Below the pieces are notes generated by a model. That model worked only from the letters and a program-made list of their open reading frames with translations, made no database searches and was not told where the DNA came from. This document shows, piece by piece, positions 41,895 through 58,891 of a stretch of DNA of 64,000 bases. Numbering within the stretch: position 1 is the stretch's first letter; every line of letters starts with the position of its first letter. The stretch comes from an uncultured Prevotella sp. (lineage in GTDB: Bacteria; Bacteroidota; Bacteroidia; Bacteroidales; Bacteroidaceae). The stretch spans positions 98,199-162,198 of the forward strand of contig CAMJDL010000001.1 of assembly GCA_946404405.1 (NCBI GenBank), read 5' to 3'. The position numbers and the translations under genes were made by a program.

Positions 41895-44800
41895 TTATTT
41901 AATAACTATTTTGCCATTTACGATATACAGACCCTTTGTAGGCTGCGCTACACGCTGACCGTTAAGGTTGTAGTACTGCTGAACGTTGAACGTTGAACGT
42001 TGAACGTCGTTGATGCCTGTTGCCTCACCACTTAAGAGATAGTTGAATGCGGGAGCACTCTGACCAACCTTAGGAACGGCGAGCCATGCACGATGAGCCT
42101 CAATCTGGAAGGCGGCACCGTCGGCAGCACCCCAGAACCAACCAAACGTGTTGGACAGTTCGGTATTGCTTGGACCGTAGCTGAGCTTGTAGAACCAACT
42201 GCTCTCGTCGGCTGTCGTGGTAGTAGCCTCGTCGCTACCCTTCAACAGGTTGACGGGAATGTAGTAAGCAGAAGCGTTATTCGTTGACTTGAGCGTGATG
42301 TCGCCACCCGTGTTGTTGTCAGACTTCAGCATAACGGCTGTACCAGAAGTGATAGCACTGTTCAGTTCCTGATAAGTCAGGGCATCGGCAGTAGCAGCTG
42401 TCACGATGTAGGCCTTAACGCCCTCTGGCAATGTATAGCTGCGCTTCGAATCGTAGAAGGTAGCATAGCCCTTCTTAGACAGGGTAACGGTAGTCAATAC
42501 AGGTATTTCGGTCACTTCACTCATACCACCCATGGCATTGACGGCGCGAACCGCATAGCTGGCAGAAGCATCGTCAACGGTATATGTAGCAGAAGTGGTA
42601 AATGCAACCAGTTTGCCATCCTTGAACACAGCCCACTGCTGAGCACCGTTGGCCTCCCATGTCAGAGTTGTACCGTTGAGCTTTGCGTTGGTAGGAGCAG
42701 CAGCCTGCTTGGCAAGTGCGGCGGGATCCCACTTCTTGTCAGCATTCTCAGAGAACATCTTTTCGTAGCTGTAGTTGGCAGCTTCGTCAGCAGAGATGAT
42801 GGTCTCGAAAGTGCCGCCATGTGAATTGATCTTGTTGCTGGCAGGTGTGATGTTGTTGGCAGCTTCGTCCATGGTGTTGAACTCACCGAACAGTTTCGGA
42901 TCCTTGTTGTTCATACCCTTCTCAATCCAACGAGTGCTGATGATGGTCTTGGCAGCGTTGGCGTCGAGTGTGGTGTTCAGATAAACAGTGATAGGTTCGT
43001 TCTGCCAGGTACGTCCGAGGTTCCAGTTGCCCTTACCATTGGCAAGGTCAACAATCTTACAACCATCGAAGACATAACCGAACTTAGTGTTGGTGGTAGG
43101 AGCCACAACGGTACGGCTACCTGTTCCGTTCAGGGCACGAGGCTCCAGTGAGATAGTGGTGTTCTGGAAACGGATGTCGCCACCACCGCAGATGAAGTCA
43201 ACTGTACCGTGGATGTCGCAGTTTTCCCAGTAAGCCTGCTGGCTGCTGTTTGAGCTGTAGTAGGTGTCCTGATAAGAAAGCATGCGAACGTTCTTACCGA
43301 TGGTGCGGTTACCAGCATCCTGGATGACGGCAGCACGACCGGCTGAACCAGCGCTGTAGTAGTCGAGTGCATTCTTCAGTGTCAAATCCTGCATATAGAG
43401 GTTGGTACCACTGATGTCGAACATGTCGGCCTTGCCCAGACCCTCGATGGACTTGTCGGGTGTGGTTACGATGATAGTGCCGTCCATGGACTCGCCAATC
43501 AGTGAGATGTTGTGGCCGCTGATAGTCGTCTTGACGGTAGCGTCAAGGTCGTAGGTGCCATTGGGCACGAAGATGAATGCACGGGCTGCATCCTTGCTGG
43601 CATTCTTGCCATTTACCACGTCGAGGACGTCGAGCAGACTGCCTGCATCGCCAGCCTTGACAAAGTACCAGTCGCCATCGCTGTCGAAGTTAACCTCGGC
43701 GGTGTTCACAATCTTCACGCCGTGGATGTACATCTCGCCACCGCACTGCATCTCCAGTGTCAGTGTGCCAGCCTCGCCCTCATAATTATAGACAGCAGTA
43801 CCACCGTCGCCGTCGGCCTTACCATCAAGCGTTGCCAGTGTCTGGTCGCCCTTCTTTACAAGGATACCTGTGCCAGAACCATACTGGCAGAGTGTGACTG
43901 TAATGGTAGCCTTCGGACCTACAAGCAGGTCAACGGTGTTGCCGTTCTTGAAGGCCCAACCGTGCTGTGCATCGTGCCAGTAGAAGCCGTCGCCTGCGGG
44001 GTTGAAGGCCTCATGGTCCTCAGCATAGAAGAACTTGTCGGCCAAGTCGAAGATGTACTTCTTATGGGTGCTGGGCACCTCCATCTCAGTCTGTATAGCG
44101 TAGAGCTTGGTATCGGCCGTGATGACGTCCTCTGTAGTGAACTTCTCACCTAGGATGTTGGCCTTAAACCAACCACGAGCCTTGTAGCCGTCCTTGGTGG
44201 CAGCTGCTTCATTGATGTTATAGGCAAATGCACCGATGGTGGCATCTTCCTCGACAGCCTGTGTAGCCAGTACGCTGCCGTCAACACCGATATACTCCAG
44301 CTTATAGTCTGGTTTGAAAATGACGTTCAGCACATAGTCCATCTTTGTATCGCCAGCAGTCATTGGGATGGTAACGGTGCAAGCCTTGTCCTTCTCCTCG
44401 TAGGTAATAGTGCCTACTTCACCAGTGGTAGCAGTGACATCGGTCAGTGGGTTGCTTGCGCTAACCATAGCCTCCTTCTTCGACAGTTTTAGTGTTGCTT
44501 CATACAGTTCGCCAAATACGTCCTCGACAGCATATTCGTTGCCATTGACCTTGAACGATGCCAATACAGGAACATCCTTTTCCGTGCCATTGAGGATACC
44601 CTCGATGACGATATCTGCCAGACCAATCTGCTTGCCAGCTTGCAGTTTGTAGAGGTAGAGCTTCAGTCCGCAAAGACCTTCACCAGCTGTGGCACCAGTG
44701 ATGTCATAGCTCTTGACCGTATTCTTACCAGAGTTGTTACGCTCGGGCTGGATACTCTTTTCTAATTCAACAGTTGTTCCGTCAGGATTCTGCCAATAGA

Positions 44801-46016
44801 CATCGATCAGACCATTGTCGGTACCGAAGCGGTTTGCCTTGAAGCCAACCTTGGTCGGTGTAAAGGTGAAACCAGGTTTCGGATTGATGATGAAACTGAC
44901 AACATCGGCATCGGTCAGATTGTCGTTATGCTGTTCAGCAGGTGTCAGACGTGTCTCTGTTGCATCGACATAGGTCGTCTTATCCTGAACACTCCAGTTG
45001 CTTCCTATCGTTACCTTGCTCGACAGGAAGTAGTCGGCATTCGAGAAAGTCGCTTTCTGTCCCTCGGTACCCTCACCGAATGGGAATGTAGCTGTAGCGG
45101 GCTCGTTGTTGAGCGTAATCTTCTCCTTCGGTGCATACTGCACTACGGAGAGTGACTTGAAGTAGTTGTTGTCGTTGGTGGACTTCACAGCTACATAGCC
45201 AGCTTCAACGTCGCTGAGCTTAGCCTTGTAGGTGTTCTCGTTGTTCAGTTCAGCACCGCCAGCGATGGTATAATACGAATAGCCGGGATAGCCAACAACC
45301 GTGATAAGGTCGCCGGCATTCTTGACGGGAATCTTGAAAACAGCACCCGTACGTACCTGAATGTTGTCGCCATTGTTACGGAACGAAGCACCGTTGGCTT
45401 CAACCTTCATCTTCAGACCATTCTTCTCGATAGCCTCTACTTCGCCAGCCTCACTGCTGCCAGAGAGTGCCACCGTAGCATCCATGACATCTTTGTTGGC
45501 ATAGCTCCATGTACCGGTTACGTCCTGAGCCACAGGTTCGCCTTTAGGACCATTGGGATCCTGTGTCACTTCAATGGCAATGAGATACTGCCCCTTGTTG
45601 ACGATCTCGACAAAGCCTTGAGCCACTTCGTTGGCCGTAGCAGTATGAGAGGTAATGGCATCTGTAGCATCCGTTCCGCCAATGGAATAGGCGAAATAGG
45701 GAGATGCGTAGCCCGTTACCTTTACCACGTCATTGATGCTCAGTACAGGAACTTGGAAAACGACCCCATTACCTGTCTGAATGCTGTTCCCATTGTCACG
45801 GATAGTCTGTCCGTTGGCGTTTACAGTTAGTAGCACGCCATTCTTCTCAACAGCTGCAATTGTTCCAGCCTCACTTTTGCCAGAGAGTGCTGTCACGGCA
45901 GCCACCACTTCAGCATTAGTGAAGTCCCATTTGGCAGTAACCGTCTCTGCCTTACCCACTAACGTCAGTATTAGCAGGAGGCACAGAGTGCCAATTCTAA
46001 GTAAGTAATTCTTCAT
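41895..46016 (-). CDS. Secreted multidomain pectin methylesterase (CE8), 1,373 aa
   Basis: Predicted pectin methylesterase. It has a signal peptide (MKNYLLRIGTLCLLLILTLVGKA), then two tandem copies of a ~140-residue domain (SGKSEAG...VEKNG and SGSSEAG...IEKNG). The recurring RFGTDNG...KQIGLADIVIEG domain follows (about 315-480), then InlB-like repeats and a jelly roll (about 670-800). The CE8 beta-helix runs from about 805 to 1130 (YQDTYY, TVDFICGGG, LGRTW), then an Fn3-like domain, a further beta domain and a secretion tail (YNLNGQRV...KGLYIVNGKIVIK). The first active-site Gln of the usual QA.AL motif is replaced (GRAAVI). A 7-nt repeat (GTTCAAC, four units) codes for the linker before the tail. 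It has its own operator-bearing promoter. Confidence 0.9.
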   Translation of the reverse strand: MKNYLLRIGTLCLLLILTLVGKAETVTAKWDFTNAEVVAAVTALSGKSEAGTIAAVEKNGVLLTVNANGQTIRDNGNSIQTGNGVVFQVPVLSINDVVKVTGYASPYFAYSIGGTDATDAITSHTATANEVAQGFVEIVNKGQYLIAIEVTQDPNGPKGEPVAQDVTGTWSYANKDVMDATVALSGSSEAGEVEAIEKNGLKMKVEANGASFRNNGDNIQVRTGAVFKIPVKNAGDLITVVGYPGYSYYTIAGGAELNNENTYKAKLSDVEAGYVAVKSTNDNNYFKSLSVVQYAPKEKITLNNEPATATFPFGEGTEGQKATFSNADYFLSSKVTIGSNWSVQDKTTYVDATETRLTPAEQHNDNLTDADVVSFIINPKPGFTFTPTKVGFKANRFGTDNGLIDVYWQNPDGTTVELEKSIQPERNNSGKNTVKSYDITGATAGEGLCGLKLYLYKLQAGKQIGLADIVIEGILNGTEKDVPVLASFKVNGNEYAVEDVFGELYEATLKLSKKEAMVSASNPLTDVTATTGEVGTITYEEKDKACTVTIPMTAGDTKMDYVLNVIFKPDYKLEYIGVDGSVLATQAVEEDATIGAFAYNINEAAATKDGYKARGWFKANILGEKFTTEDVITADTKLYAIQTEMEVPSTHKKYIFDLADKFFYAEDHEAFNPAGDGFYWHDAQHGWAFKNGNTVDLLVGPKATITVTLCQYGSGTGILVKKGDQTLATLDGKADGDGGTAVYNYEGEAGTLTLEMQCGGEMYIHGVKIVNTAEVNFDSDGDWYFVKAGDAGSLLDVLDVVNGKNASKDAARAFIFVPNGTYDLDATVKTTISGHNISLIGESMDGTIIVTTPDKSIEGLGKADMFDISGTNLYMQDLTLKNALDYYSAGSAGRAAVIQDAGNRTIGKNVRMLSYQDTYYSSNSSQQAYWENCDIHGTVDFICGGGDIRFQNTTISLEPRALNGTGSRTVVAPTTNTKFGYVFDGCKIVDLANGKGNWNLGRTWQNEPITVYLNTTLDANAAKTIISTRWIEKGMNNKDPKLFGEFNTMDEAANNITPASNKINSHGGTFETIISADEAANYSYEKMFSENADKKWDPAALAKQAAAPTNAKLNGTTLTWEANGAQQWAVFKDGKLVAFTTSATYTVDDASASYAVRAVNAMGGMSEVTEIPVLTTVTLSKKGYATFYDSKRSYTLPEGVKAYIVTAATADALTYQELNSAITSGTAVMLKSDNNTGGDITLKSTNNASAYYIPVNLLKGSDEATTTTADESSWFYKLSYGPSNTELSNTFGWFWGAADGAAFQIEAHRAWLAVPKVGQSAPAFNYLLSGEATGINDVQRSTFNVQQYYNLNGQRVAQPTKGLYIVNGKIVIK
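41981..42008. repeat. 7-nt tandem tract before the secretion tail (GAACGTT x4)
   Basis: GAACGTT is repeated three times exactly plus GAACGTC, inside the coding region just before the secretion tail. Confidence 0.9.
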
Positions 46017-46159: not shown

Positions 46160-47305
46160 CTATAGGTGTTTTTTAAAGAATTCCAACACACGTCTTTGTG
46201 CCCTCTTACCACAGCTGTGTGGCATGTCCCACAGTTCGGTTTCAAGTTTTTCGTCGGCACCCTGACTCTTCCATGTGTCGTGCATGGTCTTAAACGCTTT
46301 CTGCACACCAGGTACGGGGAAGAGCTTGTCCTGCGAGCCGTTGATGAAGAGCATAGGTTTCGGACAGGCAATACTGGCGATATGTGGATAATCCAGCCAT
46401 CGGCGTAAGCCAGGATAGCAGTTGGCAAAGCCGCCATTCTCCGTTCTACTGTACTTGAATCCCATCTGCTCGTCAGTGGTGACCATCCAGCAAACTGCAG
46501 TGCCGACCTTAATTCTATCGCTTAAGGCTGACAGCATCCAGGCGCGGTAAGCCCCCATCGACCATCCTGTACAGCCTATTCGCCCGGCATCCACTTCGGG
46601 CATCTGTGCCAAATACTCTGTACCAGCGATGTCGTCGTAGGTCATATAGGCTGAGAGGTCGATGCCATACATCATCATATTGCCGGCAATCATATCATAG
46701 CGATCGCGACGAGCCCCTTCCTTCTGTCCGCGCTCGCCCCACATGGGGGCGTCGGCAGAAAAAACTACATAGCCGTTCTGAGCCAGATAGTCGCCGAAGA
46801 ATTGCCCTTCGTAGCCTGCCGACCATGCTTCGGCATCCTTAATGACTGTAGAATCTTCACAAGCCAGTGGCCGTATCATCTTCTCCTTGCCAATAAAGAG
46901 GTGTGCACCATGATCGTGCAGGGCGTTGATGGCAGGGAACGGGCCTTTGCCGTCGGGAATCAGCACGTAGGCAGGCACGGTATAGTAACGCGAAAGGCGG
47001 ATTTCTATCTTTCGTGCTTTGTAGCCGTTGCGCTGTTCCTCAAAGAGCACCTTTGCCTCATAGCCGTCGGCAGGTGCAGGTGGTGGTGCCAGCATACAGT
47101 CGAACACCTTCTGACGGGCAGCACGCCGCCAATCGCCGAAGTCCTTGATGTCATTATGGCCCCATGCGAGAGGATAAGTCAGGTCGGCAATCAGCGAGTC
47201 GGCATAGACTGGCAGGTTGCGCATGAACTCATACTTTTCGCGCTTCTGTGCCATGCCGTTCATGTTTATGCATATGGCACAGATAAAGACCAACAGCTGT
47301 TTCAT
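46160..47305 (-). CDS. Secreted alpha/beta-hydrolase, probable carbohydrate esterase
   Basis: A 381-aa protein with a short signal peptide (MKQLLVFICAICINMNGMA). The a/b-hydrolase triad is visible: nucleophile Ser in GCTGWSMGAYRAW (about 250), Asp in FINGSQDKLFP (about 332) and His in MPHSCGKRAQR (about 364). DHGAH near 130 fits the oxyanion region. The pattern resembles Abhydrolase_7/acetyl-xylan-esterase-like enzymes of polysaccharide loci. With pectinases on both sides it may remove acetyl or methyl groups from pectic fragments, but the ester is not predictable. It starts 21 bp after the CE8 gene upstream, in the same operon. Confidence 0.85.
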   Translation of the reverse strand: MKQLLVFICAICINMNGMAQKREKYEFMRNLPVYADSLIADLTYPLAWGHNDIKDFGDWRRAARQKVFDCMLAPPPAPADGYEAKVLFEEQRNGYKARKIEIRLSRYYTVPAYVLIPDGKGPFPAINALHDHGAHLFIGKEKMIRPLACEDSTVIKDAEAWSAGYEGQFFGDYLAQNGYVVFSADAPMWGERGQKEGARRDRYDMIAGNMMMYGIDLSAYMTYDDIAGTEYLAQMPEVDAGRIGCTGWSMGAYRAWMLSALSDRIKVGTAVCWMVTTDEQMGFKYSRTENGGFANCYPGLRRWLDYPHIASIACPKPMLFINGSQDKLFPVPGVQKAFKTMHDTWKSQGADEKLETELWDMPHSCGKRAQRRVLEFFKKHL

Positions 47306-47326: not shown

Positions 47327-50300
47327 TTATAACTGTTTCTTTATAATCTTCTTGCCTCGTAGAATGACTATTCCCTTGTATGAGTCATTGACCGGCTGAC
47401 CGTTCAGGTTGTAAAGCCGGTTGTTAGCTTTTGTCTCTTGACTTTTAACTGTTTCGCTGATACCTGTTTCATTATTAGCGGCAGTGGCTTCACTCAGTCC
47501 GCCCATTTCGTTAGCAGCACGTATAGCGTATGAGGCCGTTGTGTCATCGACGGTATAAGTGGGCTCGGTAGTGAAGGCGACGACGTTGCCGTTCTTTACG
47601 ATGGCCCATAGCAGGGCATAGTTGCTGTTGTCCCATAATAGGGTGGTGCCATTCAGACGGACATTAGTAGGCTTGGGAGCCTGTTCGGTAGCGAGTGTCG
47701 GATCCCAATCACCAAACATATTGTGCATGTTACCGTATTCTGCAGCCTCTTCGACAGTCAGTATCGGGTTGTTGGCATGCCCCTCGCCAAAGGTCTTCTT
47801 ACGGCCACTGAGGTCTATCTGTGAACCAGTCTTAGTCATCGAGTTGTACTCGGCAAAACGCTTGGGCCAGCCGTTCGACATCTCGTTCCATCCGATGGCT
47901 GACGGTACGACGTTCATCTTTGTGTCAATGAAGAGGGCAACAGGTGTACCACTGCCCCAAGGACGTCCGAGGGTGTAATTGCCGTCCACGTTGCTGCCTT
48001 CACCATTGATGGTGCAATCCTTATACACCCATCCAATCTTAGCAGGCTTGGAAGGCACTGCAGCATAGCCGCCTGCAATCTGGCGCAATTCCACACCATT
48101 GAAGAAGGCGTCGCCCTTACCGCACATATAGTCGGTGCGTCCGCGAACGTAACCGCCTTCGAAGTAATAGAGACCACGGTCGTTGTTCGATGTCCAAGTG
48201 TCCTGATAGCCACGCAAAGCAGTATTCTTATAGATGGTACGCGTAGCCTTGTCATGAACAGCCAGGTCGCGACCCGTAGCGTCTTCCATACCGGTTTCGA
48301 TGGTCAGGTCCTGGAAGTAGTAGTCGCTACCGCTGATCTGGAATACGTCGCTGTTGCCAATGCCGTCATACTTGCTGGTCTGGCCGTATTGGCTGGTAAA
48401 GGTCTCTTTCTTATCGATGCCGTTAGTGATGATGACACCGTCACGGCTCTCACCGATGAGTGAGAGGTTCTGTGTATTGATGAACGTGATGCACTCGGGC
48501 ACCTCGTAGCCGTTCACGGTCTTCTTGGTCGATTTCAAAGGAATGGTATATGTGCCGTTCTTGATGAAGATACGGTATCGTACGTTCTTATCGCTGCGCT
48601 TCTGTGCAGCATTGATGGCTGCCACCAGTTGGTCGGCATTTTCTACCACCTGGTCGTACATTTTTTTGTCGATGCTGGGACGTTCCATGGTGGTGAAGCT
48701 GATGTTGATCGCCTCTGTCAGCATGTTATCCGTCAGGTCGCCCACGCTTTTAGCAGGCAGAATGAAGCGATACTCGGTGGCATATTCCAGACCTTTATAC
48801 TCGAAGGTAATGGTCTTCCCACTCACCGTGCCCCTTGTGGGATTTTGCGTTACGCTCTTGATGAGTGTGTTGTTGATGTATGCCACAGCATCGTCCGCTA
48901 ATTTCACTCTCTCATCGAAGGTTAGTACTATCTTACCTGTTGCAGAAGCACCAGTAGCCTTGTCGACAGGAACAGTTGAAATCAATACGGGTGCCTTGCC
49001 GTCGTTGACAAGTTTCGGTGTGCCAGTGATGAACAGCATGGCCAGCGTATTGCCGTCGTTAGCAGATGCTGTGCCGTCAATCTTTGAAGTTTTGTCTGCC
49101 AGTAAGCGAATGTAGAGCTCTTTCTGGTTGTTGGCGGCTTCGGGCATCTTTTCGCTGAATGTAGCGACAACTTTCGCACCAGCCATCGTTATGCTACCAA
49201 AATTGCTCCAGTCCGTACCATTCAGTGACCACTCTGCGTCGTACTTCTGGTAAGCGTTGTAGTTGTACATCATCTGGAACTGTACGTTGATATCGGTAAA
49301 GGCTTCGGCATTAATCTTCGTCTGCCAGTGCCAGTTTCCCACGTCGCCGTTACTGCCACCTGTACGCCAATTGACGGCAGCGCCCTTGAAGCTCTCGTAG
49401 CCTCCACCGCCTAATGTTGACTTGTCTAACCAACCGCTTGTCTCGCCCGTTTCGGTATTCACCAGATTAAGTGCGTCACCATCGTTATCTTGTGCAGCGA
49501 AGTCGGCTTTGCGGCCATTGCCGCCAGTCTTGTAGAAATCCCATCCAGCAATGATATCGGCCTGCGCGTAGTTGGCAGTCAACTGTGTGTTAGCATTCAT
49601 CTTCACCATCTTGTTCGAATTAGTTTCTCCATCGCTCCAGTTGGTGAAGGTTACCAGCCCTTCATATTGGTTGGCATTCAGCTCAACGGAAGTACCTTCT
49701 TCGTACATCCACTTACCATCCACCATCGTTGGGGTGGGGCTGACGGTTACCATATAGTCGTTGGTACCATCTACCGTCACCTTTAACTCGTAGGTGTTCA
49801 CTTTTTTGAAGTTAGCTGTTAGAGTGCTGTTGGCTGTCAGAATGTACTTGAATTTGGTTTCCTCAGAAACGACCTTGCCGTCAGCATCTGTCCAGTTCTG
49901 GAAGTTGTAGCCGAAGTTCTTGGTAGCTGTCAGGGTAATCTCGGTGCCAGCCTCGTAGCTGTCAGACTTCGGATAGACGCTCACGCTACCAGCCTCCACA
50001 GGAGAGGCAACAGCATTAAGCGTGTACATATCGACAGCGGCCTTGGTGCCGTCCACTGTTCCTTCGATGGTGACATCGCTGAAACCACCTTCCTTCGTGC
50101 TGCCGACACCAACGGTTGCAGCCAGTGTCAGCTGCTCGCCTGACGTGAGGGCGGTTTGTTGTGCAGCGCTGAGTTCAATCACAACCTGATTGGTATAATT
50201 GCCGTTACCTGCATACTTGTCCTTATCCACGCCTTGATTAGCACGTGGTGCGGTGTAGTTGCCCAAGGTTACAGCTTCGCCATTGCCCACCTTGGCCGTG

Positions 50301-50695
50301 ATGGTGACGCCGTTCTCGGCATCGGTGCCGAAACGCTGAATCCACATGCTCACTTTCTTGGGTGTAAAAGTAAGTCCCTTAGCGGGCTTCACTACCCATT
50401 CGACGGCCTTTGTGGTTCCTGAGGGCTTGAACTTGACAAACGAGATGCCATCGGCATTCTTGTCGGCAGTGCGTGTACCTACACCGGTAACCTCCAAGTC
50501 GCCCGTATTGATGGCTACCGTTGTGAAGGCATTTGATGGTTCTGCGACGTAGGTCGTGATGCTCTGAGCATCGTTCAGTGGCCACTGTACCTTGGCAGCG
50601 GTGTTGCTAAAAGTCTCCTGCGCCTGCATATCGGTTGCCATTCCCATGACAGCCATAAGAATGCAGGCAAGTTGTTTTACGTAATTCTTAATCAT
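47327..50695 (-). CDS. Secreted multidomain pectin methylesterase (CE8), 1,122 aa
   Basis: Predicted pectin methylesterase with a signal peptide (MIKNYVKQLACILMAVMGMATDMQA). The order is: recurring RFGTDAENG...FSDVTIEG domain (about 30-220), two InlB-like repeats (about 225-380), jelly roll (about 385-560), Big_5-like domain (about 570-665), CE8 beta-helix (about 675-1000), Fn3-like domain and secretion tail (YNLNGQPV...KGIVILRGKKI). CE8 motifs are YQDTW, TDYMCGKG and LGRPW. The usual QA.AL motif reads GRDLAV, the same first-Gln loss as in the 41895-46016 protein. No promoter is seen in front of it; it follows the frameshifted pectate lyase by about 60 bp and is likely in that operon. Confidence 0.9.
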   Translation of the reverse strand: MIKNYVKQLACILMAVMGMATDMQAQETFSNTAAKVQWPLNDAQSITTYVAEPSNAFTTVAINTGDLEVTGVGTRTADKNADGISFVKFKPSGTTKAVEWVVKPAKGLTFTPKKVSMWIQRFGTDAENGVTITAKVGNGEAVTLGNYTAPRANQGVDKDKYAGNGNYTNQVVIELSAAQQTALTSGEQLTLAATVGVGSTKEGGFSDVTIEGTVDGTKAAVDMYTLNAVASPVEAGSVSVYPKSDSYEAGTEITLTATKNFGYNFQNWTDADGKVVSEETKFKYILTANSTLTANFKKVNTYELKVTVDGTNDYMVTVSPTPTMVDGKWMYEEGTSVELNANQYEGLVTFTNWSDGETNSNKMVKMNANTQLTANYAQADIIAGWDFYKTGGNGRKADFAAQDNDGDALNLVNTETGETSGWLDKSTLGGGGYESFKGAAVNWRTGGSNGDVGNWHWQTKINAEAFTDINVQFQMMYNYNAYQKYDAEWSLNGTDWSNFGSITMAGAKVVATFSEKMPEAANNQKELYIRLLADKTSKIDGTASANDGNTLAMLFITGTPKLVNDGKAPVLISTVPVDKATGASATGKIVLTFDERVKLADDAVAYINNTLIKSVTQNPTRGTVSGKTITFEYKGLEYATEYRFILPAKSVGDLTDNMLTEAINISFTTMERPSIDKKMYDQVVENADQLVAAINAAQKRSDKNVRYRIFIKNGTYTIPLKSTKKTVNGYEVPECITFINTQNLSLIGESRDGVIITNGIDKKETFTSQYGQTSKYDGIGNSDVFQISGSDYYFQDLTIETGMEDATGRDLAVHDKATRTIYKNTALRGYQDTWTSNNDRGLYYFEGGYVRGRTDYMCGKGDAFFNGVELRQIAGGYAAVPSKPAKIGWVYKDCTINGEGSNVDGNYTLGRPWGSGTPVALFIDTKMNVVPSAIGWNEMSNGWPKRFAEYNSMTKTGSQIDLSGRKKTFGEGHANNPILTVEEAAEYGNMHNMFGDWDPTLATEQAPKPTNVRLNGTTLLWDNSNYALLWAIVKNGNVVAFTTEPTYTVDDTTASYAIRAANEMGGLSEATAANNETGISETVKSQETKANNRLYNLNGQPVNDSYKGIVILRGKKIIKKQL

Positions 50696-50757: not shown

Positions 50758-50842
50758 TTACTTCTGCATCATCTTGTGACCGTTGCTGATAACCAGTCCC
50801 TTGTAGGCCGCATTAACCCTCCGGCCTACGAGGTCGAAAAAG
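50758..50842 (-). pseudogene. Frameshifted secretion tail of the 50826-52103 pectate lyase
   Basis: In the next frame the minus strand reads FFDLVGRRVNAAYKGLVISNGHKMMQK followed by TAA at 50760-50758, an intact secretion tail. The main frame stops at 50826 because the T run (five T; plus-strand A run 50837-50841) is one base short of the in-frame length. Confidence 0.88.
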
Positions 50843-52103
50843 GGAGGCTGTCAGTCCCTCCTGATACTTTATTAATGACTTGTATGTCTGTAGGCTTACC
50901 GGCAAAGAGTGTGGCGCCAGCATTTTCTTTTACAATTGTCGGTACATCGCCGGAAGGAGCAACGCTGTATTCGTATGGTAGCGTAACAGTAGAACCAAGG
51001 GAACTATGTTTCTTGGTTTCAGCAACAAAATTATCGTTAGTCCATGTGACGGCTGTGGCATCGTTTTGACCATAATAGTTCTTGACGCCTTTTTCGAAGT
51101 AGTTGCCCTCAATCAGAAATTCTGAGTTCTTGCGGGGATTGATACAGTTGCTGGCAGTAATGCAGCTAAAGTAATTGTTCAGCATATGAACCTTGCCGAC
51201 ACGAGCCATTGGCATACGTTGTTTACAGCCCGTTCCCCACCAACAGAAAGCATAGGTAGTATTCAGAAAACCGGTTGTCTCGTTGTCACTGCTTCCGATA
51301 AGGTTGGTGTTTTGGTGCATATACGAGCGGTCGGTATAGCTGAAGGTACACCAACTGACGGTGATAAAGTCAGACTTCTGTGTGATGTCAAAGTTGCCGT
51401 CCATACCGTCCATGAAAGCACAATGGTCTATCCAACAGTTCTTAGCACCATTGGTAGCGGATATAAGGTCACTGCCACCCACATCGACAGAGCCAGGACC
51501 AGCAAAGGTGATGTTTCTGATGATTATGTTCTGACAACCTTTGAGGCTAAGAATTCCCGAATTGCGGTAGCTCTCGTTTTTGTCGGCAGTCATTTCGATA
51601 ATAATCCGGCGTGTGTTATATTCAGCCTCTTCTTTTACTGATGATCCATTAGACAATGTCCCGCCACCATTGCTGGTACTCATGCGGGGTACACCTGCAG
51701 CATCAAGTGCAGCCTTTATTTCGTCCGTCATGTGCCACTTGGTGCACAAACGTGCGTTATTGATGCCCAACAGTGTTTTGTTCGATGCTGTTATGGAAAT
51801 GTTGCTTGAAACGATAAAGTCGCCTGCCGAACCGTCGAAGATGATGACTTTGTTAGAGCCGTTCTTGATGGTATTCTCAATAGTAACCTTCATATCCAGA
51901 CCATTAGACTTCAAGACGACGACACCTGCCGTGCTCTCTGGTACGGGATAGGTATAACAGCCACCGCCAGTAATATCGTAAGGTCTGGTCTCTGTTCGCG
52001 ATGCCTGTGTACAGAAACCAAAGGGCTTGTTCAGATCGTAGTCTGTAGACCTCGCTGCCAGTGACAACACCAAGGCGACGAGTGTCAGAAGCTGTTTCTT
52101 CAT
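50826..52103 (-). CDS. Pectate lyase, PL1-like, with frameshifted C-terminus
   Basis: A 425-aa protein with a signal peptide (MKKQLLTLVALVLSLAARS). It is a PL1-type right-handed beta-helix: LKSNGLDMKVTIENT, GCQNIIIRNITF, the conserved SDLISATNGAKNCWIDHCAF and FDITQKSDFITVSWCTF (Ca2+-binding Asp region), and Arg residues in KQRMPMARVGKVHMLNNYF. It would cleave de-methylated homogalacturonan by beta-elimination. The frame ends early with SLPFSTS; the secretion tail continues one frame over (50758-50842), so the encoded enzyme should lack its tail and may stay periplasmic. It overlaps the upstream PL1 gene by ATGA, so both are translated from one message. Confidence 0.9.
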   Translation of the reverse strand: MKKQLLTLVALVLSLAARSTDYDLNKPFGFCTQASRTETRPYDITGGGCYTYPVPESTAGVVVLKSNGLDMKVTIENTIKNGSNKVIIFDGSAGDFIVSSNISITASNKTLLGINNARLCTKWHMTDEIKAALDAAGVPRMSTSNGGGTLSNGSSVKEEAEYNTRRIIIEMTADKNESYRNSGILSLKGCQNIIIRNITFAGPGSVDVGGSDLISATNGAKNCWIDHCAFMDGMDGNFDITQKSDFITVSWCTFSYTDRSYMHQNTNLIGSSDNETTGFLNTTYAFCWWGTGCKQRMPMARVGKVHMLNNYFSCITASNCINPRKNSEFLIEGNYFEKGVKNYYGQNDATAVTWTNDNFVAETKKHSSLGSTVTLPYEYSVAPSGDVPTIVKENAGATLFAGKPTDIQVINKVSGGTDSLPFSTS

Positions 52104-53815
52104 TTTTGCAATATTTTGCGACCGTTGCAGACAACAAGTCCTTTAAAGGCCGCATCAACCTTCTGGCCTGCGAGGTTGTAATATACGTTGGACTTGCTGG
52201 CATTGTTGCGAAGCACTTGGATAGCCGTAGGCGACTTCCATGCAGGATAATACTCCGTATAGTTGCTTTCGCCGTCGGTATTGCCAGCCTTCATGATGTC
52301 TTCGACCAATGAATTAGCATAGACTTCGAGGTTCGTATACCACTTCTTCTCGGTGTCGATGGTGTACTTGTTGCCGTCACTTTTATCGTTTGGATTCAGA
52401 CCGTTGGCTACTTCCCAAGCATCGGGAATACCATCGCTATCAGAGTCGAAGCCTGCCTCGCGCTGACCTGTCGGGAAGTTCGCCTCGGTATAACCATTGC
52501 AGTCAGCCACGACATCGATAAGGCCCTTCTTCTTTGTAACCGAGCCTGTATACGTAGCTGTGCCATTTTGTGCCTCGGTCATGTAACGTTCATCTACCTC
52601 GTCGCGATAGAGTGAGGCACCAGCATAGCCAAGAACCTTTTCGAAAGCTTTGTCGGCGGTATGAGTGGTTACTTCGCCCGTTGGTGCAGCTTTGTCGAGT
52701 ACCATGCAGACGTAGTCGGTGCCGCTGACGGTGATATATTCTGCATCGTTGCCATGCATGTGGTTTGGGTCTTGGGCATAATGCTTACCATTTTGAGTGA
52801 CAGTACCATTGTCATAGGTGAACTTGTTCCATCCAGCCTCTGTGCCATCAATAATATTGCCGTTGACATAGTATCGACTGGCCATGCCATAAATGTTAGG
52901 ATGTCCTGAAGAGTTGCCGCTTGCAGCAACGGTGCATTGAGTCAGTTTTGAGACGATAGCTGCAGGACCACTCTTCATGTAGTTGCCTACCATATTAATT
53001 TGTCCACCACCAGGACCACCATAGCAGCCATTGGTGTTATAGGTAATGCAATTGCGGAAGTCTACATTCTCAGCCTGAACATAGTTCTCCCATTTATACT
53101 GACTGTAGAGCTTGTTGGATGTGTAGCCGCTCCACTCGTAGCGAGCACCATTGAAGCGGGGCGAGCGATTGGCAACGTGACATATCATGTTGTGGTGAAA
53201 CGAGGCTAGTTTACCGCCCCAGATGCCACCATAGCCATGGGCACCCTTGTCATGTCCGGCATTCACCAGACTTTCGCCGATGGTACACCATTGCATAGTG
53301 AAGTTGTTGTTGTCGTAAAACGAAGCTATCTCGTCGATGCTCCATGAGAAAGAACAATGGTCTAAAATGATACCCGTTTTGTTGCGTTGCCCAATAGCAT
53401 CGGCTCCATCGTTGATGTCTTTCTCTTGCCCACGACGGAAACGGATAAAGCGTATAATGTTGTCGCCACCAGGTTGGACAGTATAGTATCGAACGGTGAT
53501 GCCTGGGTAAGGAGCTGTCTGACCAAGAACTGTAATATGGTCCTTGAATTTGAGATCACTCTTCAGCGCAATAACTCCTGCGACATCAAAGACAATGGTG
53601 CGGTATGTGCCACCAGTGACAGCTGCACGAAACGAGCCAGTGCCGGAGTCGTTAAGATTAGTGACATGAACGACGGTGGTGGAGCCGTCTGTCTTACGCC
53701 CGCCAGTGGTATAACGTCCGTGACCCTCTGCACCAGGGAATGCAGGTGCTTGCTCTTGTGCTATGGCCATAACTGACATCATGGCTGCAATAATCGTAAA
53801 TAGATACTTCTTCAT
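52100..53815 (-). CDS. Secreted pectate lyase, PL1-like, with calcium-loop repeat
   Basis: A 571-aa protein with a signal peptide (MKKYLFTIIAAMMSVMAIA). It has the layout of PL1-family pectate lyases from Bacteroidetes (AFPGAEGHGRYTTGGR, VVHVTNLNDSGTGSFRAAV, IILDHCSFSWSIDE, HHNMICHVANRSPRFNG). Near the C-terminus a thrombospondin-3/EF-like calcium loop (DSDSDGIPDAWEVANGLNP) is followed by a secretion tail (YNLAGQKV...KGLVVCNGRKILQK). It should cleave pectate outside the cell. It is the first gene of an operon continuing through the second lyase, CE8 and the hydrolase. The promoter at 53850 carries a variant of the shared operator. Confidence 0.9.
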   Translation of the reverse strand: MKKYLFTIIAAMMSVMAIAQEQAPAFPGAEGHGRYTTGGRKTDGSTTVVHVTNLNDSGTGSFRAAVTGGTYRTIVFDVAGVIALKSDLKFKDHITVLGQTAPYPGITVRYYTVQPGGDNIIRFIRFRRGQEKDINDGADAIGQRNKTGIILDHCSFSWSIDEIASFYDNNNFTMQWCTIGESLVNAGHDKGAHGYGGIWGGKLASFHHNMICHVANRSPRFNGARYEWSGYTSNKLYSQYKWENYVQAENVDFRNCITYNTNGCYGGPGGGQINMVGNYMKSGPAAIVSKLTQCTVAASGNSSGHPNIYGMASRYYVNGNIIDGTEAGWNKFTYDNGTVTQNGKHYAQDPNHMHGNDAEYITVSGTDYVCMVLDKAAPTGEVTTHTADKAFEKVLGYAGASLYRDEVDERYMTEAQNGTATYTGSVTKKKGLIDVVADCNGYTEANFPTGQREAGFDSDSDGIPDAWEVANGLNPNDKSDGNKYTIDTEKKWYTNLEVYANSLVEDIMKAGNTDGESNYTEYYPAWKSPTAIQVLRNNASKSNVYYNLAGQKVDAAFKGLVVCNGRKILQK

Positions 53816-53934: not shown

Positions 53935-56900
53935 CTATTGCATCCGTCGCAGTCCTTCCCAATGTACATTCCATGTGCCGTCTTGTGGAAAACCGGGATT
54001 GTAGGCCTGCCGGCAACCATCCCATCCCGCACACATCATAGCAACAGCAGTTAACAGGGCACCATTGCCAGGCAGATACAGACGTAGACGGTCTGCAGTC
54101 TGAAAGTTATGTCCGTTCTTCAGATATGTATTCTTTTGCGTGTCGATGAGTAGGGCATCGAGGGCTGTCTTGGTATCACCGATACGGGCAGCAGCCATAG
54201 CCATCATGCCGTAGTCCCAGCCCCATGTGGTCTGGAAGTTCCAGTTCTTCATGACCCAGTCCATGGTTTTGTGAGTTACGACTGAGTCGCTGTTTACGGG
54301 ACTGGAGGGCAAGAGTCCGAAGGCACCCAGACAGGCAGGATGGTCGTTGCGACATTTATCCGTAAAGGTCTCGGTAGCCAGTACGGGAACAGCTCCGGCA
54401 GCAACGGCATCGAAGGGATCGAAACTCTTCAGACCCGTCGTCTTGCCTTTGGGGAGACCAGCCGTGATGATACCGTCCTTGGTCAGTGGCAGCGGAGCCA
54501 TATTACTGGCAATCTTATCCCATTCTGCATGACGGGACTTGCCCATGCGTTCGCGCCACTGGTTAGCGATGTTGAGGCCGTACTGCCAATAGGCCAGTTC
54601 GAAGGGATGGTTATATGAAAAGTCCTTTGACATGGATTCCTGCATGGCAGTGGCACCTTGCAGATAGTATTTTTTCGATTTAGCATCGTAGCTGACAAAA
54701 TCGGCCATGAACGCTGCGGTAGCTTCCACATTGTCGGCATATTTCTTCAAGGTTTCCGAAGTGGGATTGGAACGATACACCTCCTCTGCCAAGTAGATAT
54801 AGTGTGGCTGCTGCCAGATAAGGAAACTTCCCGTATTGGAAGGTGCTTCGCCAGCCCAAGGGTCAGTCATCTTCATCCAACGCAGACCTTTGAACCCCTG
54901 TCGCTTGGCAATATCCTTGGCTACGGGTGCAGCCGTCTTGTTATACCATTCCAGCATCTGTTCTACTACCTTTGGCTGGTTCCATAAAGCGAAGTCGACA
55001 GCATGCCACCATGTCATCTCCAAGTGGGGACGACCGAACCATGAATTATACGTCAGACCAGTCTCCTGTGGCGGCATATTGTTGGCACAGTTGATGCGGG
55101 TGAGGTATTGCGACAATACCACGCGACGTTCCAATTCCTTGGCGCGAGGGTCAGTACATTGACTAAAGTCGGCAAAGGCACTCTCTGTCCAGAACTGATG
55201 CCAGAACTTCTGGGTAGTTTTTTGAGCATCGGAGAAGTGAAAGGTGCCCGATGGTTGTCCGTCGGGAACGGTGGCTTGGTATTCCGCTTCGAAGGCAAGA
55301 ACGTCGGCATCAGTGGTGAGCAGAAATTGATGGGGAGCTGTCTCAGTGAGGCTGGCGTTGCCCTCCCATCTTATATTAATATAATAGGTAGTGGTATCAA
55401 GTTTGTGCTCAATGACGGCTGCGTTAGTTTGTTGCGATACGATGCGCGAGGTGTGACGCTCGGGTTTCGACCAGTCTGCGGCATCGTCGGCATGCTTACC
55501 AGTAGGATAGGGCAGACGGATGGTGACAGCAGCCTGCTGATTGACGAGCAGCGGTGTGGTGATGCGATAGACTATAGCATCACGGTTGGGGAGGCCAATG
55601 GTTGTGACATCGACGGGAGAACCGTTGACAGTAAAATGCGACTCAATTTGTCCATGGTAGAGCTGTAGCTGTTGGCGAATATCACTAAGACCTTTCAAAG
55701 GGATGGATTTGCCGTTGTCGTCTTGCAATCGCAGACCGATGGCACCGAGGTTCAGCCGGTGGGGATTCACGCGCAGGTATTCAGTGGCAGCCACGTTGCG
55801 GGCAGGGTCGTTCTTCGATGCTTTGTATTCTATGGCATACACTTCGTCGTGCCCGTGTCCCAAATTGAAGGCCTTCTCAGTATCTGCAGGCTTCAGTCCC
55901 TGTGTGTTGGGAAAGGCGTGCCAACCCCAGTCGCTCATCGCACAGAGGGGAATGCCCTGCTTGTAATCATTGACGTAAGTCTGCATGCCCGTGACGTCAA
56001 CTGTTGTGCAGAAGTGGCCATTGCCGACAGAAAGCGATGCCAGTGGGTCGGCCTCAGTAATGATGGGGTTGTTGCGAAAAAGAACAGCCTCGCGATCAAT
56101 CGAGGCTGTTAAGTTATCTATCGTGTATCCAAGCATCTCCATCTCCAGCGAAGCCCAGATAAACGGTCCTACGCCCTTGGCGTCGTTGTCGCGTATCTCT
56201 TCGCTTAGATAGTACTTGAAACTGCCGTCACGTCGTTTGTTCTCTTTGACGGTACCCTTTGGATTAACCATCTTTAGTGCTGCTTCCACTTCTGGCGTGG
56301 CTGCCGGACCAAGGCCGGCTACCGAGCAACAGTTGGTCAGCGAGATGGTCTTATCGGCATTTACCTTGATGAAGTTGTTAATCATACCCTTGTACGCTTT
56401 GATACCTGCATCACGATACTTGTCGCCGACATAGCCCTTGCGATAGGCTTTCAACAGAACGTAGGTAAACATGGCCGAGCATGTAGATTCCAGATAGTTA
56501 CCCTCGCGGTTGGGAGAGTCCATGACCTGATACCATACGCCGGTCTTCTTGTCCTGCCACTTAATGACGGCGTCAAGGTCCTTTTTCAAGAGTTCTACGA
56601 CCTCCTGTTTGCGGGCATAATCGTCGGGCAGGGCATCGAGCACTTCAATCAGTGCCATCGAGTACCAGCCCTGAGCGCGTCCCCAGCAATGCTGTGACAG
56701 ACCAGTCTCCTTATCGGCCCAGAAAGTCTTGCGTGTCTCGTCGTAAGCATGACGGTTCAATCCGGTCTTTGGGTCGAGGGTTCGCTCGTAGGTAATCTTC
56801 AACTGGTTCACTGCGTCGTCATAGATGGCGATGATGGGGTCAACCTTGGCCTTTTTTACCTTTTTACCTTTTGAATCTTTTACCTTTTCCGTGATGGGCG

Positions 56901-58785
56901 CTGTCAAACAACGGTAGGGCAGCCCCATAAATATGCCGTCGAGCCATACCTGATAAGCGTAGATAGCCTTGTGCCAGAAAACTTTGTCGGCAATGGTACG
57001 AGGCTGGTCCTGTAACTGTTTCATCATGGTCTTCATGGCCAACAGATTCTTGGGCTCTGGCCATTTCTGATACATGCGTGTTACGAAATGGCCTGTGCGG
57101 ATGTTGTCCAGATTGTAGTCCAAAATGTTGTAACCCGTGATGTTGCCTTTGTCGTCAATCATCTTGTCGGTGTACATCTGGCAGTACTTGCGGATATCCT
57201 CACCACCATAGCGCAAGTAAGTGTCGAGCATTCCTTCCAGTTCGATGCCCATGACATAGCTCCATTTGGGCTTCTTGGCAAAGTCGAGCATGTAGCTTTC
57301 GGACACACGTTTCATCTCTGAATAGGTGAGCCACTCGGAATAGTGCTTATAGGGAGGATTCTGCAACACCAGCGAACCATTGATGAAGAGGTTGTCGTAG
57401 GTGATGTCTTGAGCCAGACCAATCTGGTGAATAGGCTTGTTATAGACACCATTGAACTGACAGTTCTTGACGGTGATGTTGTTGATGGTATTGGCCAGCT
57501 TCGGGTCTTGGTAGCCCACAATCATGACGCCGTATTTAGATCTCTGACAGGTGACATTCTCCATCGTCACGTTGCGGATGGTGGGGTAGAATCCACGACA
57601 GCATACCTCGCGCGGCTCGTAGTCGGTATTAAGCTTCAGCACGGCTTCGCCACACTGTCCTACGGTGATGTTGCGCATGTTGATGTTCTCGATAATACCG
57701 CCACGGCACGAGTTGGTCTTGATACGCAACACACGGTCCAATGAGGGCGAATCCATCACGCAGTTCTGGGCATAGACATTCTGGCAACCGCCGGAAATCT
57801 CAGAGCCGATGACGACGCCACCGTGACCATTATTGAACTTACAGTCGCGGATGATGATATTCTTTGAAGGACGTCCGGCAAACTTGCCCTGACCACCCTC
57901 GCGACCGTCGTTATTACGTCCGCTCTTGATGGCGATACAGTCATCACCCGTATTGAAGTAGCAGTTTTCAATCAGCACGCGGTCGCACGACTCGGGGTCG
58001 CATCCGTCACCGTTAGGCCCGTCGTTATTTATATGTACGCCACGTACGGTGATATCGGTAGATAGCAAGGGATGAATGACCCAGAATGGCGAACGCAACA
58101 GTGTGACATCTTCTATCAATATACCCTCACACTGGTTGAAATTAATCATTTGGGGACGCAGACCATCGGTTGGACCGAACTTACGCTCGTCCATGGGAAC
58201 ACCATCCTCAGCATATTTCAGCAGACGGGCACGGGCTCCCATGTTCTGGGCAATGCCGCCTTCCTTCATGCCAAACTTCTTGCTGCCACACCAGGGCCAC
58301 CATGTTTCGTTAGAACCACCCCCGTCAATGGTACCCTTACCTGTTATGGCAATATCCTTGGCTTGATAAGCGTAGATCAGTGGTGACACGTTCCAGCAGT
58401 CCAATCCCTCCCAACGTGTAGGAACGATAGGGTAGAGCTCTGGCTCGAAAGCGAATTCAAGAACGGCCCCTTCGCCAATGACGAGGTTAACGCCCGACTT
58501 CAGCTGGATGGCTGCCGTCAGGAAACGCTGTCCTGAAGGAATGATGACACGACCGCCACCCTTTTGTGAACACTTGTCAATGGCTTTCTGGATAGCCTTC
58601 TGATTCTTGACAGCCGTGTTGGTCGTCTTCGCGCCAAACTTAGTAATCACGTAATCTTTGTCCGCAAACTGTGGCATGCGGATGCTCTGCTCAATCTGCT
58701 TATACTGCTGCTGATTCCAGCCTTTAGCTTGGATACCAACAACCACCAGCATGATGAACATCATGGTCTGAATTAGTCTTTTCAT
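53935..58785 (-). CDS. GH28 polygalacturonase - GH105 unsaturated uronyl hydrolase - (a/a)6 glycosidase-like fusion
   Basis: The start is the ATG at 58785 (1,616 aa), after the promoter at 58812; it begins a signal peptide (MKRLIQTMMFIMLVVVGIQA). There are three modules. GH28 (about 25-470) has all its active-site motifs: NGDGCDP, TGDDCIA, GHGG and RIKTN. GH105 (about 480-900) has FWADKETGLSQHCWGRAQGWY and PNREGNYLESTCSAMF. A third, (a/a)6-barrel-like region (about 905-1616; LASLSVGNGHFCTTVDVTGMQTY, WFGRPHLEMTWWHAVDF, TWGWDYGMMAMAAARIG) resembles GH65/GH95-type barrels, but I cannot place it in a family. The combination could release galacturonate and trim unsaturated ends of pectic oligomers. 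A Lys-rich insert (VKDSKGKKVKKAKVD) in GH105 comes from a simple DNA repeat. There is no secretion tail, so a periplasmic enzyme is likely. Confidence 0.88.
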   Translation of the reverse strand: MKRLIQTMMFIMLVVVGIQAKGWNQQQYKQIEQSIRMPQFADKDYVITKFGAKTTNTAVKNQKAIQKAIDKCSQKGGGRVIIPSGQRFLTAAIQLKSGVNLVIGEGAVLEFAFEPELYPIVPTRWEGLDCWNVSPLIYAYQAKDIAITGKGTIDGGGSNETWWPWCGSKKFGMKEGGIAQNMGARARLLKYAEDGVPMDERKFGPTDGLRPQMINFNQCEGILIEDVTLLRSPFWVIHPLLSTDITVRGVHINNDGPNGDGCDPESCDRVLIENCYFNTGDDCIAIKSGRNNDGREGGQGKFAGRPSKNIIIRDCKFNNGHGGVVIGSEISGGCQNVYAQNCVMDSPSLDRVLRIKTNSCRGGIIENINMRNITVGQCGEAVLKLNTDYEPREVCCRGFYPTIRNVTMENVTCQRSKYGVMIVGYQDPKLANTINNITVKNCQFNGVYNKPIHQIGLAQDITYDNLFINGSLVLQNPPYKHYSEWLTYSEMKRVSESYMLDFAKKPKWSYVMGIELEGMLDTYLRYGGEDIRKYCQMYTDKMIDDKGNITGYNILDYNLDNIRTGHFVTRMYQKWPEPKNLLAMKTMMKQLQDQPRTIADKVFWHKAIYAYQVWLDGIFMGLPYRCLTAPITEKVKDSKGKKVKKAKVDPIIAIYDDAVNQLKITYERTLDPKTGLNRHAYDETRKTFWADKETGLSQHCWGRAQGWYSMALIEVLDALPDDYARKQEVVELLKKDLDAVIKWQDKKTGVWYQVMDSPNREGNYLESTCSAMFTYVLLKAYRKGYVGDKYRDAGIKAYKGMINNFIKVNADKTISLTNCCSVAGLGPAATPEVEAALKMVNPKGTVKENKRRDGSFKYYLSEEIRDNDAKGVGPFIWASLEMEMLGYTIDNLTASIDREAVLFRNNPIITEADPLASLSVGNGHFCTTVDVTGMQTYVNDYKQGIPLCAMSDWGWHAFPNTQGLKPADTEKAFNLGHGHDEVYAIEYKASKNDPARNVAATEYLRVNPHRLNLGAIGLRLQDDNGKSIPLKGLSDIRQQLQLYHGQIESHFTVNGSPVDVTTIGLPNRDAIVYRITTPLLVNQQAAVTIRLPYPTGKHADDAADWSKPERHTSRIVSQQTNAAVIEHKLDTTTYYINIRWEGNASLTETAPHQFLLTTDADVLAFEAEYQATVPDGQPSGTFHFSDAQKTTQKFWHQFWTESAFADFSQCTDPRAKELERRVVLSQYLTRINCANNMPPQETGLTYNSWFGRPHLEMTWWHAVDFALWNQPKVVEQMLEWYNKTAAPVAKDIAKRQGFKGLRWMKMTDPWAGEAPSNTGSFLIWQQPHYIYLAEEVYRSNPTSETLKKYADNVEATAAFMADFVSYDAKSKKYYLQGATAMQESMSKDFSYNHPFELAYWQYGLNIANQWRERMGKSRHAEWDKIASNMAPLPLTKDGIITAGLPKGKTTGLKSFDPFDAVAAGAVPVLATETFTDKCRNDHPACLGAFGLLPSSPVNSDSVVTHKTMDWVMKNWNFQTTWGWDYGMMAMAAARIGDTKTALDALLIDTQKNTYLKNGHNFQTADRLRLYLPGNGALLTAVAMMCAGWDGCRQAYNPGFPQDGTWNVHWEGLRRMQ

Positions 58786-58811
58786 TTCGTCTGTTTTAGT
58801 AAATTTGGGGA

Positions 58812-58819
58812 CAAAGGTA
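58812..58819 (-). promoter_or_regulatory. -7 box of the GH28-GH105 gene
   Basis: Minus-strand TACCTTTG (58819-58812), 27 bp before the ATG at 58785. The shared CGTAAACG operator is not present here. Confidence 0.7.
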
Positions 58820-58859
58820 CACATTTTATGCGCTAAAAACGAAAAAAGTTGTCGGAAAA

Positions 58860-58891
58860 TTTGCATTTTATGTAAATAATCTCTAAATTTG
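58860..58891 (+). promoter_or_regulatory. Promoter of the plus-strand small RNA candidate
   Basis: TTTG (58860-58863), a 20-bp gap and TAAATTTG (58884-58891) fit the consensus on the plus strand, where no protein gene follows. Confidence 0.65.

Follow-up and report, generated by a model that had tools for sequence, protein, structure and literature searches.

Genomic context of the PL1 gene

The window, that is, the whole 64-kb stretch of DNA that was analysed, consists of bases 98199-162198 of contig C1 in a draft genome of 3.68 Mb that is 84% complete and split into 132 contigs. Sequence relatives of this host genome are Prevotella MAGs from the rumen and gut. A run of pectin genes lies on the minus strand of the window and includes a gene for a PL1 pectate lyase (50826..52103). 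A PelZ-like pectate lyase is encoded just upstream of it (52100-53815), and the remainder of the run consists of genes for a GH28-GH88 protein (53935-58866), a tailed multi-domain protein (47327-50695), a protein resembling esterases (46160-47305), and a pectinesterase (41895-46016). The GH28-GH88 gene encodes a 1643-residue fusion of GH28, GH88, and an extra C-terminal region; its counterparts in relatives (for example, L143 and L144) stop after the GH88 part.

The open reading frame of the PL1 gene in frame 0 encodes 425 residues and begins with a Sec signal peptide, as judged by eye. The product matched the Pfam family Pectate_lyase_4 (PF00544) at 73.1 bits against a curated cut-off of 24 (E 3e-20), and pectate lyases in the PDB aligned with it to residue 399 of 425 (E 7e-21). 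The gene product is thus predicted to be a pectate lyase with a complete catalytic domain, in agreement with the enzyme class given in a preliminary description of this DNA. In other words, its catalytic domain is like that of other PL1 (PF00544) members and the gene differs only in the C-terminal tail.

Two reading frames at the 3' end of the PL1 gene

Frame 0 terminates as ...SGGTDSLPFSTS-stop with a TAG at 50828-50826, where the preliminary description had placed the end of the gene, and carries no secretion tail. A complete tail with its own stop (50758-50760) is present in the -1 frame, as had been claimed. Its open stretch runs on the minus strand from 50850 to 50758 and translates as QPPFFDLVGRRVNAAYKGLVISNGHKMMQK-stop. 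The two frames are jointly open over 22 nt only, from a TGA of the tail frame (50853-50851) to the TAG of frame 0, and a T5 run (50837..50841) lies inside this doubly open stretch. The protein read across the site aligns without a gap with the closest homologue, G362 (GKPTDIQVINKVSGGTDSLPF/FDLVGRRV versus GEPTGIQEIHDVTDCRNSHHVYNLSGQRV), which upholds the earlier view that the frames are separated by a one-base shift at the T5 run.

The KPT/D codons of a PorU-type cleavage motif (PT/GI-like) are located at 50886..50897 in frame 0. Because this motif, KPT/DI, remains in frame 0, the shift splits one short C-terminal domain (CTD). Motifs B, D, and E of this domain fall in the -1 frame and are not joined to the protein encoded by frame 0.

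The out-of-frame tail and type IX secretion

Other genes of the window and homologues of PL1 end in the same type of tail. A tail profile made of 23 tails, the PL1 out-of-frame stretch itself being one of the 23 rows, found this stretch in its own genome at an E value of 3.4e-14 (54.9 bits), where the open frame has just 30 residues. The stretch retains every invariant column of the other tails in the alignment, and the match is not due to chance. The host genome contains 60 tail matches at E <= 1e-3, and 58 of them reside in open frames of at least 158 residues. The two matches in short frames are the PL1 tail and a partial orphan fragment of 21 residues, L122 (G000:C35:27315-27359), which lies behind an unrelated gene. 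Another orphan fragment, L123 (G000:C14:49506-49592), directly follows a gene that itself ends in a tail-like stretch, and a tail fragment in a relative, L153 (G161:C27:10675-10755), is situated within an apparently decayed gene.

The tail consensus, YNLxGQRV...YKGIVIxNGKK...K, matches by eye motifs B, D, and E in the short CTDs that cargo of the type IX secretion system (T9SS) carries in P. intermedia; these CTDs span 40-55 residues and are cleaved at PT/GI (PMC11969387). PL1 displays the PT/xI motif together with motifs B (Y/F-x-L-x-G-R), D (KGLVI), and E (NG-basic), and its CTD would be 43 residues long if read across the site. It differs from the P. intermedia CTDs in that the cleavage motif is in another frame than B, D, and E. 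The host genome encodes SprA (735.8 bits) and the PorU sortase (1007.6 bits, with its neighbours in the frame). NCBIfam models gave no match to the 31-residue PL1 tail, and the Por secretion tail model PF18962 gave none at this tail in a search of the host genome; tails as short as this one score below the curated models, as do most in-frame tails of the same genome. The secretion-type tail of the preliminary description can thus be specified as T9SS-type, and likeness to the short CTDs suggests that the PL1 tail would target its protein to the T9SS.

The PL1 tail (50758-50835) and the tail of the upstream gene (52103-52177) are identical at 58 of 75 nt, and the PL1 tail is nearer to this neighbour than to any orthologue tail found. 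This similarity points to a possible exchange of tails, or to concerted evolution, within the pectin cluster. An imprecise capture of the tail from gene 52100-53815, which carries the closest tail found, was also considered as the origin of the arrangement, but a one-base change fits better because the linker and the tail together fit the G362 homologue gap-free.

A candidate frameshift signal at the overlap

Frame 0 at the site reads CTC CCT TTT TCG; therefore, C_CCU_UUU (50838..50844, minus strand) is a canonical zero-frame X_XXZ_ZZN heptamer. A -1 slip on it leads exactly into the tail frame. The heptamer falls in the efficient -1 class H_HH.U_UU.Y, the classes having been measured in E. 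coli (PMC4066793). The rules for stimulators call for a Shine-Dalgarno (SD)-like element 6-17 nt upstream and a hairpin of at least 7.6 kcal/mol 4-10 nt downstream (PMC4066793). An SD-like AGGAGG (50857..50862) is found 13 nt upstream of the PL1 heptamer, and an 8-bp hairpin formed by GUAGGCCG and CGGCCUAC (50803..50829) starts 8 nt past it. The energy of the hairpin is -14.6 kcal/mol and that of the 45-50 nt segment around it is -20.4 kcal/mol. Heptamer, SD-like element, and hairpin all agree with the rules. The in-frame heptamer and the downstream hairpin were absent from the preliminary description, as was the commonness of natural tail-less homologues. Part of the hairpin is a consequence of conserved coding sequence; the tail of the neighbouring gene also has AGGCC/GGCCT. 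A reading of the site as an internal terminator (GGAGG..CCUCC followed by U5) was rejected, as a terminator scan of the same strand found none.

Can an SD-like element act in such a host? Ribosomes of Bacteroidia mostly disregard the SD at initiation (PMC8710568). However, prfB frameshifting relies on an SD inside the gene, and in its form with a perfect SD it is widespread in Bacteroidia; it occurs in 72% of the Bacteroidia genomes surveyed (PMC8710568). An SD within a gene can thus act in Bacteroidia, which weakens the objection.

Contig C1 (46,932 codons) contains 83 zero-frame heptamers, 21 of them efficient, and the PL1 site alone among these 21 has both an SD and a hairpin; its hairpin is also the strongest. 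When single-base deletions were simulated at random, 1.1% of them left a doubly open stretch that contained an efficient heptamer; for runs of at least 6 bases the figure was 3 of 46. The hairpin segment ranks first among 62 tail-coding segments (-20.4 versus a mean of -9.6, sd 3.4). Synonymous recodings attained the PL1 hairpin in 3.7% and the 50-nt energy in 1.5% of cases, while 29% formed some hairpin of at least 7.6 kcal/mol, and an SD-like motif at the same spacing has a background of 14.5% of positions. Multiplied together, with independence assumed and the features assembled post hoc, these probabilities come to about 3.5e-4 if the deletion was in a homopolymer and 6e-5 if it was random. 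The joint chance of the signal features is thus roughly 1 in 3,000 or less, and such figures serve as guides only because the protein sequence favours some hairpin and the features were chosen after the fact.

The arrangement resembles bacterial -1 frameshifting of the dnaX and IS3 type in having an SD-like element, an X_XXZ_ZZN heptamer, and a hairpin that match in order, frame, and spacing (PMC4066793). It differs in that the PL1 signal is a putative one and is not conserved in the relatives examined. It also differs in its host gene, a secreted enzyme to which the new frame adds a secretion signal.

Tail states among PL1 homologues

The preliminary description had called for a comparison of the same site in other strains. 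The closest PL1 homologues found are 72-75% identical; their tails are in frame and none has the shift. Neither the signal nor the frame arrangement is conserved among the homologues examined, which belong to other species and have the tail either in frame or absent. Genome searches and a contig scan found no second genome of the same species, and no related loci were found in viral contigs.

A script sorted the 47 homologues of a partly resolved PL1 tree into 16 with a short tail, 16 with a long extension, 13 without a tail, and 2 whose tail is out of frame. One member labelled tail-less (L007) has an atypical tail at its end, so 12 is the better tail-less count. Parsimony placed 13 tail-state changes on this tree, which includes one clade of tail-less enzymes. 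Natural tail-less homologues stop near residue 402-407. Tailed and tail-less paralogues are adjacent in three relatives (G349, G388, and G180; L132, L133, and L138), which suggests that both forms are useful. Since tail-less homologues are common and adjacent pairs occur, a tail-less PL1 is a normal form of the enzyme, and it is presumably periplasmic.

The two out-of-frame members of the tree are the host PL1 and a homologue in G233 (L038/L019, G233:C83:1331-1417), whose intact tail is out of frame in the +1 direction. The G233 shift is a separate, non-homopolymer indel (GGCCGGCTCTATC) without a slippery heptamer, and the tail at G161:C27:10675 shows a similar break, also with no heptamer. 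A survey of out-of-frame tails covered the host genome and 8 relatives, the latter contributing 234 tails at E <= 1e-6. It found no recurrent class of frameshifts, as each out-of-frame tail was an orphan fragment, lay at a contig end, or was shifted by +1 with no efficient heptamer.

Origin and possible use of the frameshift

The gap-free alignment with the closest homologue suggests that the out-of-frame state was derived from an in-frame ancestor through the loss of one base. As the likeliest single reading, although at a confidence somewhat below even, we tentatively propose that a one-base change put the tail out of frame and that some ribosomes slip by -1, yielding a periplasmic enzyme and a minor T9SS-secreted form. 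Under this proposal, most ribosomes would terminate at 50826 and the Sec-exported PL1 would be kept in the periplasm. A minority would slip back one base on C_CCU_UUU, with help from the hairpin that starts 8 nt downstream and possibly from the upstream AGGAGG, and the slipped product would gain the 26-residue end of the T9SS signal. This tailed share could cross SprA and then be cleaved or attached by PorU. Slippage at a useful rate and secretion driven by the PL1 tail are both inferred from the sequence here. A one-base loss in the past and slippage in the present are compatible, and the rescue of indels by compensatory frameshifting is a known class of event (PMC5009743). Support for the proposal comes from the presence of the required -1 heptamer inside an overlap of just 22 nt; the lack of a shared arrangement in homologues and the breakage of tails elsewhere without a heptamer (G233 and G161:C27) count against it. 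We judge the prior probability of a functional frameshift in a gene of this kind to be low, perhaps about 1%; the signal lifts it a few hundred fold at most, and the missing conservation lowers it again.

A quite possible alternative, though one to which we give clearly less than an even chance, is a real one-base deletion private to this genome that left an enzyme that is periplasmic only, the tail being a young relic and the heptamer and hairpin coincidental. Homologues with the tail in frame exist, the tail state has often changed in the PL1 family, as the parsimony count and the tail-less clade indicate, and the broken tails in G233 and G161:C27, which lack a heptamer, imply that tails break at roughly 1-2% per tail. 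However, a private deletion does not account for the joint occurrence of an efficient heptamer, an SD-like element, and a hairpin stronger than that of any other among the 62 tails, and the supposed relic preserves all the invariant positions of the alignment. The same coincidence of heptamer and hairpin would remain if the shift were a sequencing or assembly error and the tail were truly in frame in the genome. Such an error is rather unlikely in our estimate. It would accord with a fragmented draft that is probably a MAG, with a homopolymer at the site, and with the gap-free alignment of the read-through protein, but a T5/T6 run is short for a short-read error, frame disruption is rare in the other tails of the genome, and the ORF map of the window has no other obviously split gene.

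The preliminary description had also offered a slippage switch or phase variation. The slippage switch, in its ribosomal form, gains support from the heptamer, hairpin, and SD-like element; phase variation, in which the homopolymer would change length during growth and toggle the tail on and off, is very improbable. A homopolymer does sit at the frame junction, but the aligned homologues do not keep the tract. Hypermutable tracts of phase-variable genes are much longer than 5-6 bases, about 7 bases or more together with length variants being expected, and the PL1 tract of 5 is too short for hypermutability.

What would ribosomal slippage at this site mean for the enzyme? It is quite possible, though clearly less likely than not, that -1 frameshifting sets the share of enzyme with a type IX signal, so that one gene would give rise to both a periplasmic and a cell-surface pectate lyase. 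Among the papers searched, none mentions both type IX secretion and a ribosomal frameshift. A comparable case is stop-codon readthrough that exposes a cryptic peroxisomal targeting signal (PMC4207609), in which a recoded minority product likewise gains a C-terminal address; it differs in being eukaryotic readthrough directed to the peroxisome, whereas the PL1 case would involve a -1 frameshift and the outer membrane. Since tailed and tail-less PL1 are encoded by separate, neighbouring genes in related genomes, a single gene with slippage could stand in for two. If the site is inactive, the case still documents the loss of a secretion tail in a pectinase family. If it works, it would represent translational dose control of protein secretion in Bacteroidota, and some apparently 'broken' T9SS tails, a few per several hundred here, may be alternative products.
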